From the NCBI GenBank assembly GCA_007694005.1, contig RECN01000107.1:1-36522 (forward strand): DNA of 36,522 nt. Reading direction: 5' to 3'. The notes beneath the pieces are model-generated. The model ran no database searches. It had not been told where the DNA came from and was given only the letters and a program-made list of their open reading frames with translations. The position numbers and the translations under genes were made by a program. How positions within the stretch are numbered: the first letter of the stretch is position 1; each line of letters starts with the position of its first letter. The stretch comes from Spirochaetaceae bacterium (lineage in GTDB: Bacteria > Spirochaetota > Spirochaetia > DSM-27196 > SKKC01). Below are positions 22,729-32,266 of the stretch, piece by piece.

Positions 22729-24105
22729 ATGGCCAATATAGCTTTTTTTCAGAACAGACTCGGCCGTACCGACGGTGTTTCGCTTGAAGTCGACAAGTGG
22801 CGGGTCATTCTCGAGGGCATGGGACATACCGTGTACTACTGCTCGGGGAACGACGACGTCCTGGGGAACTACGTGATTCCCGAGCTGTACGCGCTTCATC
22901 CGGTCACCTGGAAAATTCTGCGGAACGGAACGGTGAAGTTCGAAGACTATGCGAGCGAAGCGGAGCTCGAGCGCGACATCTACGAACACGCAGACTGCAT
23001 CGAGAAGAAACTGCTCGCGTTCATTGAAAAGCAGAGGATTGACGTCCTGGTCCCGAATAACCTGTGTTCAGGGGGCTACCAGCCAGCTGCGGGTATAGCC
23101 TTTCATCGCGTCATTAGAAAGACCGGGCTGCCGACGATCATTCACAGCCACGATTTCTATCACGAGGATTCAGGAGAAGTCTGTGCAACCTGCCAGACCG
23201 TGGAAAGCATCTATGAGCGCTATTTTCCGACGAAGTTACCTAACGTACAGCACGTTGTAATTAACCGCATCAGTCAGGCTGATCTCAAGCGACGTAAGAA
23301 CCTCGACGCTATGGTCGTTCCCAACGTGTTTGACTTCGATCAGGATCCCTGGACCGAAGATGAGTACAACCGTGATTTTCGCAGAGCCTTCGGTATGTCG
23401 GAGAACGACCTGCTCTTTCTGCAGGCGACTCGCATCCTCGATCGAAAGGGCATAGAGATGGCGATCGACACGATTGCGGGAATACAGGATCCGGGACGTC
23501 GCAAAGAGCTCAACGGGGTGACGACTGCGGTCGGTGGTACGGTAGGGCCAGAGTCAAGGATCGTTCTTTTATGTGCAGGTATCGTTGAGAACATCGGTAT
23601 ATCGGGCAGTTACTGGGATTATCTCAAGCAGAAGGCAGACGGCCTTGGCGTCGATCTGCGGCACGTCGGTGATCGGGTGCGGCATTCCCGGGCTACGGAT
23701 CATGCCGGGGCGAAAGTCTACTCGTTGTGGGACAGCTACGTGCAGGCGGATTTTGTGACCTATCCGAGTTACTGGGAGGGCTGGGGAAACCAGTTTGTCG
23801 AGGCTGTGTTCGCAAAACTGCCGGTTCTGGTCTATGAGTACCCGGTGTGGACCAGCGACCTGCGGGAACACGGCTTTCAGGTCGTATCTCTCGGTTCTGA
23901 TCTGGCGGGGCGCGACGCGAACGGTCTGGTGCGTGTCGACCGGCAGACCGTTGATCGCTGTGCGGATGAGATCGTGTCGGTCCTCCGGGATTCCGGGCGG
24001 AAACAGAAGATGGTTGAACATAACTACGCAGTTGCTTCATCATCATTTTCCATGCGTAACCTCCAGGAGCATATCAAGGAGTTAATCGCTGGAACTGGAT
24101 TGTAA
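22729..24105 (+). CDS. GT4-family glycosyltransferase
   Basis: A 458-residue retaining GT-B enzyme without signal peptide. The N-terminal IAFFQNRLGRTDGVSLEVDKW has the Gly-rich acceptor loop seen in GT4 proteins, and the opening FFQNRLGRTDGVSLEV plus MGHTVYYCSG recalls mannosylglucosylglycerate-type synthases, a weak hint only. The catalytic C domain has ATRILDRKGIEMAID and the EX7E motif EGWGNQFVEAVFAKLPVLV that holds the donor nucleotide sugar. A synthetic transferase inside a sugar-importer operon is unusual; it may cap or modify an imported glycoside, or make a compatible solute from it. Start ATG has AGGA upstream. Confidence 0.87.
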   Translation: MANIAFFQNRLGRTDGVSLEVDKWRVILEGMGHTVYYCSGNDDVLGNYVIPELYALHPVTWKILRNGTVKFEDYASEAELERDIYEHADCIEKKLLAFIEKQRIDVLVPNNLCSGGYQPAAGIAFHRVIRKTGLPTIIHSHDFYHEDSGEVCATCQTVESIYERYFPTKLPNVQHVVINRISQADLKRRKNLDAMVVPNVFDFDQDPWTEDEYNRDFRRAFGMSENDLLFLQATRILDRKGIEMAIDTIAGIQDPGRRKELNGVTTAVGGTVGPESRIVLLCAGIVENIGISGSYWDYLKQKADGLGVDLRHVGDRVRHSRATDHAGAKVYSLWDSYVQADFVTYPSYWEGWGNQFVEAVFAKLPVLVYEYPVWTSDLREHGFQVVSLGSDLAGRDANGLVRVDRQTVDRCADEIVSVLRDSGRKQKMVEHNYAVASSSFSMRNLQEHIKELIAGTGL

Positions 24106-26709: not shown

Positions 26710-27537
26710 ATGAGTTCACCGGTGGTCACACAGACACGCAAGCGTTTCCACGAACTCCGGGTCTTCCTGAGTGCTGTCATGTTTTACACCCGCATTCCCG
26801 TAAAGTATGAGCTTGTCGACGAGGACGGACTTCTGCAGAAGGCGACCCGATACCTCCCGCTCATAGGGCTCATGGTCGGGGCGGTTTCGGCGCTTGGATT
26901 CTACCTTGTGTCTTTTGTGGCACCGGCAGGTATCGCCGCCGTGGTCGCGATGACGCTTGCCGTACTCATGACCGGTGCGTTCCACGAGGACGGCTTTGTC
27001 GATACCTGCGACGGCTTCGGCGGCGGCTGGACTGTCGAGCAGACGCTTTCCATCATGAAGGATTCCCGCATAGGGACCTATGGAGGCATAGGGCTGTTCC
27101 TGAGCCTGCTGCTGCGATTCCTGCTGATAGCGGAGATCGCGCATGCCGGTACAGCCATGACCGCCGCGACCGCGATCGTGCTGTCGCACAGTCTCGGTCG
27201 GCTGGTACCGGTCTACGTTATTGCGGCGAGTTCCTATGTCAGACTGGATGAGACAAGCAAGGTGAAACCGGTCGCGAAAGGTGTGTCGGTCGTGAGTGTG
27301 GGCATTGCCACTATTGTGGCCGCGGCGATCGTGTTCGGGCTGACAGGTTTGTGGACGGTAGCTTTCGCTGCCCCGGCCGCAGCACTCGTACTCGCGTTGA
27401 TGTGCCGTGTCTGGTTTCACCGGCACATAGGCGGGTATACCGGCGACACCTTAGGTGCTGCCGAACAGATCGGTGAACTCGCTGTGCTGGCTGTTCTGGT
27501 CGTGTTGCCCCAGGTGTTGCACCTTACTTGGCTGTGA
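26710..27537 (+). CDS. cobS: Adenosylcobinamide-GDP ribazoletransferase (cobalamin synthase)
   Basis: Membrane enzyme joining adenosylcobinamide-GDP to alpha-ribazole in the last stages of cobalamin assembly. The 275-residue product has RVFLSAVMFYTRIPVKYE near the start, the acidic metal-binding GAFHEDGFVDTCDGFGGG, KDSRIGTYGGIGLFLSLLLRF (core KDSRIGTYG), and the terminal HIGGYTGDTLGAAEQIGELA that characterises CobS. Several transmembrane helices are clear. No other cob genes (cobT, cobU, cobC) or a B12 riboswitch are nearby, so this is a lone gene, transcribed with the GH13 gene. Its 3' end overlaps the tip-subunit gene on the opposite strand by 14 bases. Confidence 0.95.
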   Translation: MSSPVVTQTRKRFHELRVFLSAVMFYTRIPVKYELVDEDGLLQKATRYLPLIGLMVGAVSALGFYLVSFVAPAGIAAVVAMTLAVLMTGAFHEDGFVDTCDGFGGGWTVEQTLSIMKDSRIGTYGGIGLFLSLLLRFLLIAEIAHAGTAMTAATAIVLSHSLGRLVPVYVIAASSYVRLDETSKVKPVAKGVSVVSVGIATIVAAAIVFGLTGLWTVAFAAPAAALVLALMCRVWFHRHIGGYTGDTLGAAEQIGELAVLAVLVVLPQVLHLTWL

Positions 27538-28513
27538 TCGTAATTATGAGCCTGTCTTCGTAGTCGCCTGCGGGCAGGTTCGGGCTGCCGGAATAGGAGA
27601 TTCGAAGATCGCGGGTCAGCCAGTTTGCTCCCGGGTCTCCGGTCGTGTCGGTTATGAGCTCCGAGTTGGTTACCAGAGCCGTGCCGGATTCCCAGTCTCC
27701 GATCGAATCTCCTCCGTAGGTCAGACTGTAGTCGAGCACTCCCGGGCCGCTCGCCTGCGCGAAGAAGGGTGTGGTGCCGCTTCCCGCTGCAGCAAGATTG
27801 CTGCTTGTAATGCTGACTTCGTAACCGGTGTCGGCGTTGCTGCGTTCGTGCACGGTCGCCAGAAGTCTGTCCGTCACGGGCACGGTCAGATCCATGGTGC
27901 GGATTCCGGGTTCCTGCACGGCATACAGGTCGATAAGCCGTGCCATGCGGGCGGTTACGGTAAGGGTGGCAGTGTCTACACGGTCGTATGTCGCGCTGCT
28001 TCCGAGAACGCCCGTGTACGTGTAGAGTTCAAGGGTTACGGTGTCCGTATACTCTCCCGAGGCGCTGAACTGGTCTGCGGGAACTTCGTAGTAGACAAAA
28101 AAGGTCTCGAAGCGGGAGACGTCAACGGCGGTCGCTGTGTCGAAGGCGTTTGAGGTAATAACGTTGTTGGCACCGAAGCCGCCGAAGTCCGGGCTGGCCA
28201 GTACGTCTGTTGATCCGTTCGGGGTAGTCGGGTACAGCTGGTAGTTGATGGTTGCATCCGGAAGGGTGCGACTCACCTGCCTGTTCGTGTAGGAGCCACC
28301 GCCAGCGGTCCCACCGATAAACCAGTCGGGCACAGCGTCCCCCCGGTGTTCGACGGTGACTTCCACCGTTACAAGTGCTGTCTGTTCATAGGAGACATTC
28401 GCGTAGATGCCGCCGGGTGGGGCGGAGAATCGAAAGATGTTCTGTGCTGCAAGCAGGCCCGGAACGAGAAGTAACAGAAAAGCGAGTGCGTATTTTACCG
28501 TGCGCCATTTCAT
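27524..28513 (-). CDS. Two-domain pilus tip subunit / putative adhesin of chaperone-usher system
   Basis: A 329-residue secreted protein. Signal peptide MKWRTVKYALAFLLLLVPGLLAAQ, then two similar beta-rich domains: the first ends at SGEYTDTVTLELYTY (about residue 166), the second at PAGDYEDRLIITITAK (end). Both repeat the closing strand pattern of spore-coat-U-type fimbrial subunits. A two-domain subunit as last gene is what a CsuE-like tip adhesin would be: N domain receptor-binding, C domain anchored. No cysteine is visible in the mature protein. Its ATG overlaps the usher stop (ATGA). Binding target unknown. Weak end-of-family similarity makes this partly inferred from context. Confidence 0.75.
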   Translation of the reverse strand: MKWRTVKYALAFLLLLVPGLLAAQNIFRFSAPPGGIYANVSYEQTALVTVEVTVEHRGDAVPDWFIGGTAGGGSYTNRQVSRTLPDATINYQLYPTTPNGSTDVLASPDFGGFGANNVITSNAFDTATAVDVSRFETFFVYYEVPADQFSASGEYTDTVTLELYTYTGVLGSSATYDRVDTATLTVTARMARLIDLYAVQEPGIRTMDLTVPVTDRLLATVHERSNADTGYEVSITSSNLAAAGSGTTPFFAQASGPGVLDYSLTYGGDSIGDWESGTALVTNSELITDTTGDPGANWLTRDLRISYSGSPNLPAGDYEDRLIITITAK

Positions 28514-30915
28514 GGGGTCTGTCCTTCCGGCCGCAGTTCACCGGCATCATGCGCCTGCTCGCCGTCGCTCTCTACGTCGAGCACCCACCGGAGGTCAGGC
28601 TCGGTACCGACACGCAGTTCATAGCTGCCGGGGAGAAGATCGTAGAGTTCAAAGTATCCGGTCTCGTCGGTAAAGAAGACAAGAGGTGAGGTTTCTGACG
28701 TTGTCGTAGGTGCCGCGTCGTCCGCAGGGCTTTCTACGCGTGCGCTCGCGCTCCCTACCGTAAGCGTAACCGGGTTTCCGCCTGCGTCAAGCAGCACACC
28801 TCGCGCCTGCACGCGGCGAACAGGGTCGATCACGAGGTGTATGCCAGATCGGTAGGTCGGCCTGATCACGTAGGAGAGCTCATCAACGTCTATGCTCGGG
28901 TCGAACTCTTCCATTTCCAGGTTAATCTGCTGCGGTACGTGCGATCTTACGCCACCGAAGAACACCGACTCGTCCTGAATGTACAGGTCCCGGTCGGGTC
29001 CTCCGCCGCGACGGACGCGAAAGGTGTTTTCGGATACGTGATCCGCGGTTGAGATAATCACAAAGGAGTCGCCGACGGGGCGGGTCATTGCGAACGCGCC
29101 GTCTGCGAATACAGCAGCGGTCTGAAGGCCAACGGAACTCGTGTTGCGCATGTCGCCGCCGGCAGGCACGAAGTTTACCGAGTGTCCGAGTGATGCCTGC
29201 AGGAAGGGGTTGCGATAACCGGCTCCGGCCGAGATACTCGCGACGCGTTCGGTGTCTACGGGTATCTGTACCGCGGCGTTAAAACTGTAGGGGTCAACCG
29301 TCTCGTCTGCGTAGCGGGTCCAGAACCCGGCGAATTCCTGCGTCACGAGATTTTGCTGGAGGAACAGGTTCTGCCGCTGTTCGGGGAAGGCAGAAGAAAC
29401 GGTGACGCTCGCAACGAAGGAGATCTCCTCGTCGTAGACTATGCCCGTGTCGACCCGGACTGAAGTACCGCCACCGGCGCTCGTCCGAAGCGATGCGCGA
29501 GCGTCGACGCGCTGCCGGGAGTCTAGCAGATCGTAGCGGTAGTTCACACGCGGGGTCAGGCTCATGCCGGTGCCGAGCGTAAGACTGACCGAGGCCCCGG
29601 CGTTCACCTGCTCGCGCGCGGGCTCACCCGCCTCGTTCACGAGGCGTTGCCAGCCTGCAGTCAGGTCTATGTTCCGGAAGCGTGGAAGGGCTGGATCGTG
29701 GTAGGTATAGCGCAGGGGTAGTGAAATCAGAAGGCGTTCGTCCGGACCTATGCCGATATCGGCGTCTATCGCGAAGGCACCGAAGCGGGTTGCGGTAATC
29801 GCTTCGAATCCAAGGTCAAGCTGAAACTCAAGCGCCTCTATGCCCTGCCTGAGTCCGAGGGTAAAAAAGGGCCCTATGCCTATGCGTTCGTAGGCTGCGA
29901 TCACCGGTCGTTCCACGTCGCGGTCTGCGATCCCGAGTGCGATACCCGCCTCGAACTCGCCAGGACCTAACAGGCGGGAGTCTGCGGGAACTACGAGTTC
30001 AACCTCCTGCCTGCCGTCTTCTCCGTCCCACACGACGCGGATGGTGTTTATGCCGGATGAGAGCCCGAGTCCGTTCAGCCGGTAGGTACCGGCGCTCACA
30101 ACGCTCCGGCGGATAAGCCGATCGTTAAGGTATATCAGCAGCTCTCCGTCGCGCGGCAGGAAAATGTTGTCCACCAGTATCCGATCACCGGGGCTGCGTT
30201 CGCGAAACATGGCCAGGCGCGCGATAGAAAGACCTGCGATACCCGAAACATCAGACAGGTTCGTTTCGCGCCACGGCAGATCCCCGGCCTGAAGCCGGTA
30301 GCCGAGCTCCGGGAAGTCGTAGGTCGTCCGGGCGTAATCGAAAGTGAACGGGTCGGGCCCGGTCTGTAGACTTGCGCGGGACTCGACTGCCACGCCGTAT
30401 ACGTTTACTGCCGGCTCTACCGTGGCCGAGGCGAGGAGGGTGTCGGGCGCGTAACTGTAGCGCACATTCGTGCCCAGGTTCAGAATGGCGCTGAAGCGGG
30501 CAGGGTGCACGTCGACTCCCCGCAGCTCTCGAGGCCTGCTCCGAAAGCTTATAAGCTCCGCGCGTCGTAGCTCCGGTGGAATAGAGACGAGCACGGCGAG
30601 TTCGTCCAGGTCAAAGATAATATCGAGTTCAAGCGGCTCAAGCGCTTCGATGCTCACAAACTGCCCGGCTTCAAAAGGATTCAGGCGCGCTTCGTAGCCC
30701 GGTTCAAGCCGGGACTCGATGAGCCGGTAGAGTTCAAAGGGGTCGAGGAGAAGCTCCTCGTCTGGTGTTATGCGTGTTGATATTTCGGAAATCTGTCGGC
30801 CGTCGACAACGATGGGAAGCGAGATTTCGGTTTCACCGTTCTGTGCTTCAAGGTCAGGCGCTGTAAGGAGTAAGAAGAGAATAGCGATGGCTGCTGGCCA
30901 CGGCCGATTGTTCAT
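28510..30915 (-). CDS. Outer-membrane usher protein of a chaperone-usher pathway
   Basis: An 801-residue outer-membrane assembly platform. Signal peptide MNNRPWPAAIAILFLLLTAP ends near EAQ; the start at ATG 30915 is chosen because it begins the signal peptide. Then: N-terminal chaperone-docking domain (LPIVVDGRQISEI ... FDLDELAVLVSIPPELR), transmembrane beta strands starting ELGYRLQAGDLPWRETNLSD, a plug domain (IYLNDRLIRRSVVSAGTYRL, GLGLSSGINTIRVVWDGEDG, VPADSRLLGPGEFEAG), a long barrel, and C-terminal domains with SGIHLVIDPVRRVQARGVL and LVFFTDETGYFELYDLLPGSYEL. The whole layout matches FimD/PapC/CsuD-type ushers. No Cys was noticed in the mature chain. Overlaps the tip-subunit start by ATGA. 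Confidence 0.85.
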   Translation of the reverse strand: MNNRPWPAAIAILFLLLTAPDLEAQNGETEISLPIVVDGRQISEISTRITPDEELLLDPFELYRLIESRLEPGYEARLNPFEAGQFVSIEALEPLELDIIFDLDELAVLVSIPPELRRAELISFRSRPRELRGVDVHPARFSAILNLGTNVRYSYAPDTLLASATVEPAVNVYGVAVESRASLQTGPDPFTFDYARTTYDFPELGYRLQAGDLPWRETNLSDVSGIAGLSIARLAMFRERSPGDRILVDNIFLPRDGELLIYLNDRLIRRSVVSAGTYRLNGLGLSSGINTIRVVWDGEDGRQEVELVVPADSRLLGPGEFEAGIALGIADRDVERPVIAAYERIGIGPFFTLGLRQGIEALEFQLDLGFEAITATRFGAFAIDADIGIGPDERLLISLPLRYTYHDPALPRFRNIDLTAGWQRLVNEAGEPAREQVNAGASVSLTLGTGMSLTPRVNYRYDLLDSRQRVDARASLRTSAGGGTSVRVDTGIVYDEEISFVASVTVSSAFPEQRQNLFLQQNLVTQEFAGFWTRYADETVDPYSFNAAVQIPVDTERVASISAGAGYRNPFLQASLGHSVNFVPAGGDMRNTSSVGLQTAAVFADGAFAMTRPVGDSFVIISTADHVSENTFRVRRGGGPDRDLYIQDESVFFGGVRSHVPQQINLEMEEFDPSIDVDELSYVIRPTYRSGIHLVIDPVRRVQARGVLLDAGGNPVTLTVGSASARVESPADDAAPTTTSETSPLVFFTDETGYFELYDLLPGSYELRVGTEPDLRWVLDVESDGEQAHDAGELRPEGQTP

Positions 30916-30923
30916 ATGCTTTG

Positions 30924-31685
30924 TTAATCGGCAAGATACAGCGTCGCGTATATCTCCCCGTCCCAAAGATCGTCCGGTGCAGGTATGACAAACTCGCGTG
31001 TGAGTCCTGCAAGCATGTTTTCACCCGAAAGGCCCCGCAAATCACCTGACTCAAGCTCTATCCGCGGCGGGATATCCGGATCATACGTCAGCGCGAGTTC
31101 AGCTCCACGCAGGATTGCGTGCCTGGTTCCGACGTTTTCAAGCGTAACCCGCAGGAACCGTTCGGAATCCTGTGTCTCGCGGCTCACGCTCACCACGCGT
31201 ACATCCGGCCGGGCCCGCGGTGGGGTCACGTACACCGTGCCCTCGTAGCGGTAGGTCAGGCGTATGCCGCCCCCCTGCGTTGGCAGATCACCACCGAGTG
31301 CTATAGGCACCTGCTCGGCGATAATGCGGTAGGCCTGTTCCGTTTCAACTGACGCCGGTCCGTTCCACTGCACGCGTATGCTTCGCCCGTTACCCGGATC
31401 GAGCAGAACGTTCCGCGGGAATACGGTGAACTCAGGTGATTCCTCGCCGAGCACTTCGGTCCCGTCACGCTGAATCTCTCGCGGTCTGACCGCTATGCGC
31501 ACGGCGATGCGTTCGTTGGTTGTGTTCTCGACGCGGAACAGGTGATTGGAACCCGCCCCGCTCGGGGCGAACTCCTGACTGATAGGCTCGAAGCGAAAGG
31601 CCTGCGCGGACACCGCGCAGACCATACAGAGAGCCACCGACAGAACCCTGATCCGCATACTGCCGGAAAGCGGGATGCGGAGCAT
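30924..31685 (-). CDS. Periplasmic pilus-assembly chaperone
   Basis: A 253-residue immunoglobulin-fold chaperone that would hold fimbrial subunits by donor-strand complementation and bring them to the usher. The signal peptide ends at SAQA after MRIRVLSVALCMVCAV. The mature part has FRFEPISQEFAPSGAGSNHLFRVENTTNERIAVRIAV, partly quoted as FAPSGAGSNHLFRVENTTNE, and the G1-strand-like PEFTVFPRNVLLDPGNGRSIRVQW region typical of PapD/CsuC-like chaperones. The start may be ATG 31685, four bases after the pilin stop, or ATG 31658, which gives a shorter signal peptide; neither has a strong ribosome site, suggesting coupling. The C-terminal domain follows a short linker after TPPRARPD. Confidence 0.85.
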   Translation of the reverse strand: MLRIPLSGSMRIRVLSVALCMVCAVSAQAFRFEPISQEFAPSGAGSNHLFRVENTTNERIAVRIAVRPREIQRDGTEVLGEESPEFTVFPRNVLLDPGNGRSIRVQWNGPASVETEQAYRIIAEQVPIALGGDLPTQGGGIRLTYRYEGTVYVTPPRARPDVRVVSVSRETQDSERFLRVTLENVGTRHAILRGAELALTYDPDIPPRIELESGDLRGLSGENMLAGLTREFVIPAPDDLWDGEIYATLYLAD

Positions 31686-31689
31686 GGGG

Positions 31690-32178
31690 TTACTTCGCTC
31701 TCAGTACCAGTGCCAGCTGGTCGGAGTAGTAGCCGGCGGGAAAGGTCTCGGTCTGCGTGTACTCGATTCGCAGTGTTGCGTCGAAATCGGCAGCATCGTC
31801 TTCATCCCAGAGCTCGACACCGACAGCTGGAATTGTTGCGTACGCTGGAACGACTACTCCGTCGTCTACCGCGATTTGATACGAAATATCATCGCCCGTA
31901 CTATTTACCAGAAGCGATTCATTAACCGAAAAAACCCAGAGCGACCAACCAGCGGTATTGTTTGTTCTGACTTCGAACGTTGCAATTGCCGGGGTCAGCG
32001 TGGCGAGCCCTTCGAGATCAAGATTCTGTGCATCGACATCCGGTGTGACGGCTATCGTCAACTGTAGCGGAACCAACCCACCAATATTCAGGGTCTGGCC
32101 GTTGTTCTGCGCCACAAGCGGCGTGGCCGTGAGCACGAGAAGTGCCACGATTGCAATGAGTAAGATTCGTTTCTTCAT
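31690..32178 (-). CDS. Major pilin-like subunit, first gene of the chaperone-usher operon
   Basis: A 162-residue secreted protein. Signal peptide MKKRILLIAIVALLVLTATPLVAQ; the mature N terminus NNGQTLNIGGLVPLQLTIAV is an alternating hydrophobic strand fit for donor-strand exchange. The closing FPAGYYSDQLALVLRAK resembles the ends of both domains of the tip subunit (PAGDYEDRLIITITAK), linking the proteins as a family. Cysteine is absent, unlike usual spore-coat-U pilins, which have a disulphide. GGAGG lies seven bases before the ATG. First position, strong promoter and hairpin leader fit a highly made shaft subunit. Sequence alone gives limited family evidence; the context is decisive. Confidence 0.72.
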   Translation of the reverse strand: MKKRILLIAIVALLVLTATPLVAQNNGQTLNIGGLVPLQLTIAVTPDVDAQNLDLEGLATLTPAIATFEVRTNNTAGWSLWVFSVNESLLVNSTGDDISYQIAVDDGVVVPAYATIPAVGVELWDEDDAADFDATLRIEYTQTETFPAGYYSDQLALVLRAK

Positions 32179-32197
32179 AATGTCCCTCCATGGACAC

Positions 32198-32214
32198 CGG
32201 CGCCCGAGGCGCCG
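32198..32214 (-). promoter_or_regulatory. Leader hairpin of the pilin operon
   Basis: CGGCGCC (32198-32204), three-base loop, GGCGCCG (32208-32214): a perfect, very stable 7-bp stem near the 5' end of the predicted leader, ahead of the pilin ribosome site. It likely stabilises the mRNA against 5' decay. Confidence 0.6.
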
Positions 32215-32238
32215 ATTCCTGATACCTTTAATATCTCA

Positions 32239-32266
32239 ATTATATCCCTTCGAAGGTCGGCGTCAA
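32239..32266 (-). promoter_or_regulatory. Strong predicted promoter of the chaperone-usher operon
   Basis: Minus-strand TTGACG (32266-32261), 16 bases, perfect TATAAT (32244-32239). Transcription should begin near 32232, giving a leader of about 54 bases that contains the hairpin. Upstream is AT-rich DNA with two copies of TTTTCGCAATT (32292-32302 and 32321-32331, 29 bases apart), possible binding sites. Confidence 0.7.

Follow-up and report, generated by a model that had tools for sequence, protein, structure and literature searches.

A complete, disulphide-free chaperone–usher operon of probable archaic type in a spirochaete

The window, a 36,522-nucleotide contig (RECN01000107.1) belonging to a 3.9-Mb genome, carries on its minus strand, at positions 27524–32178, what is most likely a complete four-gene chaperone–usher fibre operon of the archaic (Csu/CupE-like) type that does without disulphides. 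We put the probability of this reading, which draws on genes, predicted folds and conservation, at about 0.9. By the sequences of its genes, the operon is part of a spirochaete-wide branch of chaperone–usher machinery.

The operon and its products

An ORF check of the window showed four tightly packed, intact genes that run, 5' to 3', from pilin through PapD-type chaperone and FimD-type usher to a two-domain tip subunit, just as the first-pass annotation had read them. More than a dozen other spirochaete genomes across the phylum have the four genes in this order, which is thus more than chance. Pilin and chaperone genes are separated by 4 nt and chaperone and usher genes by 8 nt, while the usher and tip genes do overlap as ATGA, as had been noted. 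Upstream, the putative promoter TTGACG-16-TATAAT (32239–32266, minus strand) matches the consensus at 11 of 12 bases and is followed by the ribosome-binding sequence GGAGGGAC. It had been taken for a strong single promoter, and it is indeed the sole promoter-like site upstream of the operon on this strand; however, a scan at a threshold of 9/12 gave three matches in the region against 2.0 expected, which is no more than chance. The typA gene lies upstream on the same strand, and the last 14 nt of the tip gene lie within the convergent cobS. Elsewhere in the window, the best match of positions 22729–24105 was mannosylglucosylglycerate synthase (320 bits against a cut-off of 640), with an alpha-amylase-family gene in the same stretch; compatible-solute or glucoside metabolism is possible there.

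The chaperone (30924–31685, minus strand) has 253 residues, or about 243 if the second ATG is the start. It scores above the curated cut-off of PF00345 (PapD_N), a model matched by all 16 aligned homologues, and the best PDB match of the homologues' profile is CsuC (E 3e-7); the single sequence found nothing relevant in the PDB. R146-Y147 is invariant among the 16 homologues and lines up with the R-Y that opens the strand G1 donor motif of CsuC, so that the archaic donor motif, which begins with a conserved tyrosine (Y116 in CsuC), appears to be present, its C-terminal shift being judged by alignment. Shiga-toxin models also came up for the chaperone (E 0.01–0.1, about 14 bits against cut-offs of 600–736) and were discarded as chance.

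The usher (28510–30915, minus strand; 801 residues from the ATG at 30915) is diverged to the point that, searched alone, it stays below the PF00577 threshold, a model that gave no usher anywhere in the genome, and finds nothing relevant in the PDB. Its relatives provide the link: PF00577 is matched by 7 of 15 of them (best E 3.6e-16), and a profile of the 15 matches FimD (E 6e-9) and PapC (E 2e-8). In the AlphaFold model (pLDDT 89.5), residues 123–797 superpose on FimD with Z 22.6 (Foldseek E 8e-34), whereas the best porins reach only about 15. Six strands ahead of the plug and 18 behind it make up a 24-strand barrel, which is preceded by one domain and followed by two; counted from the DSSP strands of the model, the limits are approximately 29–123 for the N-terminal domain, 141–623 for the barrel, 251–330 for the plug, and 651–725 and 745–794 for the two C-terminal domains. 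Profile and fold thus agree on the usher family, and the plug and C-terminal domains proposed earlier from motifs are both found in the model. The classical FimD and PapC ushers have the same plan, but identity to them in structural alignment is only about 11–13%, and the subunits here are SCPU-type rather than FimA-type.

Among the subunits, the tip protein (27524–28513, minus strand; 329 residues) is the one that can be recognised directly. It scores above the cut-off of PF05229 (SCPU), with the match at residues 68–161 in an N-domain of about 24–170; 15 of 16 relatives also match this model. Its profile matches CsuE (E 2e-4) and CsuA/B (E 1e-3); the single sequence found nothing relevant in the PDB. 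A profile built from pilins alone finds the C-terminal half, residues 174–329, at E 1e-26, from which it follows that the tip has two domains, the second of them pilin-like. SCPU-type subunits, an archaic feature, are therefore seen directly in the tip and, by way of its C-domain, in the pilin.

The pilin (31690–32178, minus strand; 162 residues) matched no family by itself and nothing relevant in a single-sequence search of the PDB. Read by eye, a signal peptide (about 1–24) is followed by a candidate donor-strand segment (about 25–38, with alternating L30, I32, G34, V36 and L38), and the predicted model then shows an incomplete Ig-like domain at 39–162. The pLDDT is 89.2 overall and 93–98 in the core, with low confidence in the unstructured residues up to about 30. 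The incomplete Ig fold and a free N-terminal donor strand are thus both seen in the model, as would be expected if strand exchange takes place. The twin hairpin clinch (A'-A'', B-B') is not visible in this monomer; in Csu it is fully formed only after strand exchange (PMC9452303). The top fold matches are mostly donor-strand pilins, including CsuA/B (Z 8.7) and the pilin domain of CfaE (Z 9.0), but these scores are close to the level of unrelated beta sandwiches (a glycosidase at 8.5 in the same list) and are not conclusive alone. The identity of the pilin therefore rests on its sequence link to the second domain of the tip and on its conserved gene position. With the tip profile pointing to CsuE and CsuA/B and the pilin model to CsuA/B, the donor-strand fold expected of the subunits is borne out. 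Enterotoxin-like PDB matches of the pilin profile (E 0.02, with no significant stretch) were discarded as chance. The closing pattern PAG-x-Y-x-D, thought to be common to all three subunit domains, holds for the pilin (PAGYYSD) and for the C-domain of the tip (PAGDYED); in the N-domain of the tip the corresponding residues are ASGEYTD.

The Csu pilus of Acinetobacter baumannii, with the gene order csuA/B-A-B-C-D-E (PMC4654587, PMC9452303), shares with the operon a CsuC-type chaperone with an R-Y donor start, SCPU-type subunits, an usher, a two-domain last subunit and a CsuA/B-like pilin fold. The likeness in order and last subunit claimed by the first-pass annotation therefore holds, except that the minor pilins CsuA and CsuB have no counterpart here, and usher and pilin are too diverged from Csu for direct sequence detection. 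The CupE pilus of Pseudomonas aeruginosa (PMC10104325) has the same order, overlapping usher and tip genes and a two-domain tip; it differs in having two extra minor pilins and PprA-PprB control, and no such regulator was seen adjoining the operon.

Would such an operon build a long fibre? The presence of a single pilin, with no minor ones, and the high Foldseek ranking of the polyadhesin-type subunits PsaA, Caf1 and SafA against the pilin model are compatible with a product that is assembled in the same way but forms no long rod, being either a short or capsule-like polymer, as in Caf1 and Psa, or tip complexes only. We consider this unlikely. Polyadhesin systems usually have no two-domain tip. 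Archaic systems that form rods (PMC9452303, PMC10104325) have the Csu-like order and, at its end, a separate two-domain subunit, as here.

Spread, ancestry and selection in the spirochaetes

A congener (G002) also has the locus, on a contig of 8117 bases that is identical to SKKC01000385.1, from the Spirochaetales genome of isolate CSSed162cmA_133, and this marks the window itself as spirochaetal, as had been suspected. The closest relatives of the host are isolates that we take, from their names and general knowledge, to come from soda-lake sediment, and the host is presumably a free-living spirochaete. An usher of this kind was found in 27/61 relatives (for the most part from the same order), and a sample of 393 genomes from the phylum contained 38 that carry one. 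The system was flagged as notable should it prove spirochaetal; it is spirochaetal, but it is not the rarity of one organism.

Within the host's own GTDB family the locus is patchy (absent from G001 and G003–G006), which makes loss or transfer within the phylum likely. Since chaperone–usher clusters are known to move, this patchiness could also be taken as a sign of a recent proteobacterial import into one spirochaete, or even of a binning error. However, typA and cobS flank the operon, the congener keeps both locus and flank at 77–81% DNA identity in the aligned parts, and the ushers of spirochaetes stand apart from those of other phyla. In a maximum-likelihood tree of 65 ushers (of the quick kind, unrooted, with no classical outgroup and with some long branches), 26 spirochaete ushers fall on one side of a branch with an SH-aLRT of 97, and 39 from other or unknown phyla, including Proteobacteria, Cyanobacteria and Bdellovibrionota, on the other. 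An import is thus already largely refuted and most improbable. The usher phylogeny that had been called for gives the spirochaete ushers one side of a supported branch; a single origin for them is favoured rather than proved, given the limits of the tree.

The operon also appears to be maintained. Protein identity between the two congeners is 60% for pilin, 88% for chaperone and 82.5% for usher (526 residues compared), and the NG86 estimates of dN/dS are 0.35/1.41 (about 0.25) for pilin, 0.075/1.05 for chaperone and 0.117/1.51 for usher (both 0.07–0.08), although these ratios are rough, since saturation is near once synonymous distances exceed 1. The values indicate purifying selection on all three genes, with the pilin, the fastest-changing, least constrained, as expected of a surface part. 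Within the stretch compared, blastn left only window 31756–31925, in the middle of the pilin gene, unaligned with the congener locus (L021). These ratios, and the intactness of all four frames, speak strongly against the operon being in decay or non-functional, a notion for which the second locus of the genome might be cited, since its pilin-like frame has no clear start; we regard it as highly unlikely.

That second locus (L122, C23:1-8590) is a chaperone–usher–tip set at 1049–5734 of contig C23, likewise cysteine-free, and the upstream pilin-like frame also has no clear signal peptide. Other spirochaete loci (L126, L129 and L130) have several pilin-like genes and are larger relatives of the four-gene set; L126 has two chaperone genes before one usher.

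A different arrangement is seen in a sister family of the same class (f16), in which all 26 loci examined (L038, L123, L124, L127, L128, L131 and L136–L155) encode an usher of about 1075–1307 residues with a chaperone gene close by. The usher match begins only after some 160–470 residues (residue 75 in one case), and the extra N-terminal part consists either of a single hydrophobic segment with a Pro/Glu-rich linker or of two to seven such segments with a linker. The multi-segment ushers are followed by about 4–11 further, mostly small exported proteins (five were tested, none with a Pfam match), and several giant ushers adjoin V-type-ATPase-like genes with no subunit genes. Judged from these features, the giant ushers are apparently anchored in the inner membrane and reach across the periplasm, and they may be a more surprising result than the operon itself.

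The missing disulphide

Mature pilin and tip had been noted to have no cysteine. Both indeed have none, nor does the usher, and the only cysteines of the chaperone (C20 and C23) lie in its signal peptide, so that the whole mature set is cysteine-free. The cysteines of the A–B disulphide of archaic pilins have been called invariant (C16–C62 in CsuA/B; PMC4654587) and the disulphide highly conserved (C41–C85 in CupE1; PMC10104325); the window pilin has no such bond. When 54 pilins are aligned, cysteine recurs in just two columns of the mature domain; these correspond to L40 and T72 of the window pilin, with about 32 residues between the two positions versus 46 in CsuA/B.

Nearly all spirochaete pilins have other residues at both canonical cysteine positions: in named spirochaete loci, and leaving out one truncated tip, 15 of 16 single-domain pilins are without cysteine and the remaining one has a single cysteine. 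The corresponding counts elsewhere are 9/10 for Bdellovibrionota, 17/30 for Cyanobacteria and 4/31 for Proteobacteria, biased figures, because relatives were searched with a chaperone pattern built from spirochaete sequences (the usher alignment having no conserved stretch). Bacteriovoracaceae and some Cyanobacteria (L102, L104, L111, L114; L084, L106) likewise have pilins with no cysteine pair, the former with the same gene order as here, but their ushers are on separate branches and, unlike here, their hosts have VKOR; Bdellovibrionota tips also keep 2–3 cysteines, whereas the tip here has none. Going by these sequences, the cysteine-free trait is real and phylum-wide in Spirochaetes, but not unique to them. 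The absent disulphide was thus rightly seen as a departure from the usual pilins, and its place can be given (L40 and T72), but cysteine-free archaic subunits are also found outside the phylum. Since the disulphide is also missing from most Bdellovibrionota and from roughly half of the cyanobacterial subunits examined, it may not define the archaic clade.

Why were the cysteines given up? DsbA, DsbB and VKOR were all looked for in the host genome, and none was found; across this genome and 60 relatives, DsbB occurs in 0/61, VKOR in one and DsbA in five. Among the 14 spirochaete hosts of named loci, none has DsbB or VKOR and none has the pilin cysteine pair. In Spirochaetes without these two enzymes, a disulphide would have no known oxidase. 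On the other hand, VKOR is found in Bdellovibrionota and Cyanobacteria hosts both with and without paired pilin cysteines, and in two genomes with the pair neither DsbB nor VKOR was found. As the sole cause of cysteine loss, the absence of DsbB and VKOR thus holds only partly over the 49 host genomes; it fits the Spirochaetes but is not a general cause, because most Bdellovibrionota and about half of the Cyanobacteria lack the pair too, although they have VKOR. Strict membership of the archaic type as described fails on this one feature, and the sequences suggest dropping the feature from the definition rather than the operon from the group.

A fibre for spirochaetes

By analogy with Csu, the diverged system probably builds thin adhesive fibres. 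Following the known pathway, pilin and tip would be exported by Sec, the chaperone would lend its G1 strand to each subunit by donor-strand complementation, and the usher would take the chaperone–tip complex first. At the usher, the N-terminal strand of each incoming pilin would then take the place of the chaperone strand, again and again, and a thin homopolymer would pass through the barrel to the cell surface, carrying the two-domain protein at its tip as adhesin. The pilin fold would be held by donor-strand complementation alone, since hydrophobic and Ser/Thr residues stand in place of the cysteines of the archaic A–B disulphide. A likely role would be attachment or biofilm formation in sediment.

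Archaic systems have been reported from Proteobacteria, Cyanobacteria and Deinococcus-Thermus (PMC4654587). In the openly accessible literature we found no description of a spirochaete chaperone–usher system, the likeliest candidates merely citing pathway papers. We give about an even chance to the broader view that an old, phylum-specific spirochaete branch builds disulphide-free fibres in an oxidase-poor periplasm, that the ushers of the sister family are tethered to the inner membrane, and that the disulphide does not define archaic pili. A phylum-wide branch with no pilin cysteines extends the published range of archaic systems and suggests that the disulphide is dispensable for fold and assembly. 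It also offers a link, open to test, between pilin sequence and the oxidation chemistry of the periplasm. Spirochaetes are known for their internal flagella; by analogy, the operon would provide them with a plausible external adhesive fibre.
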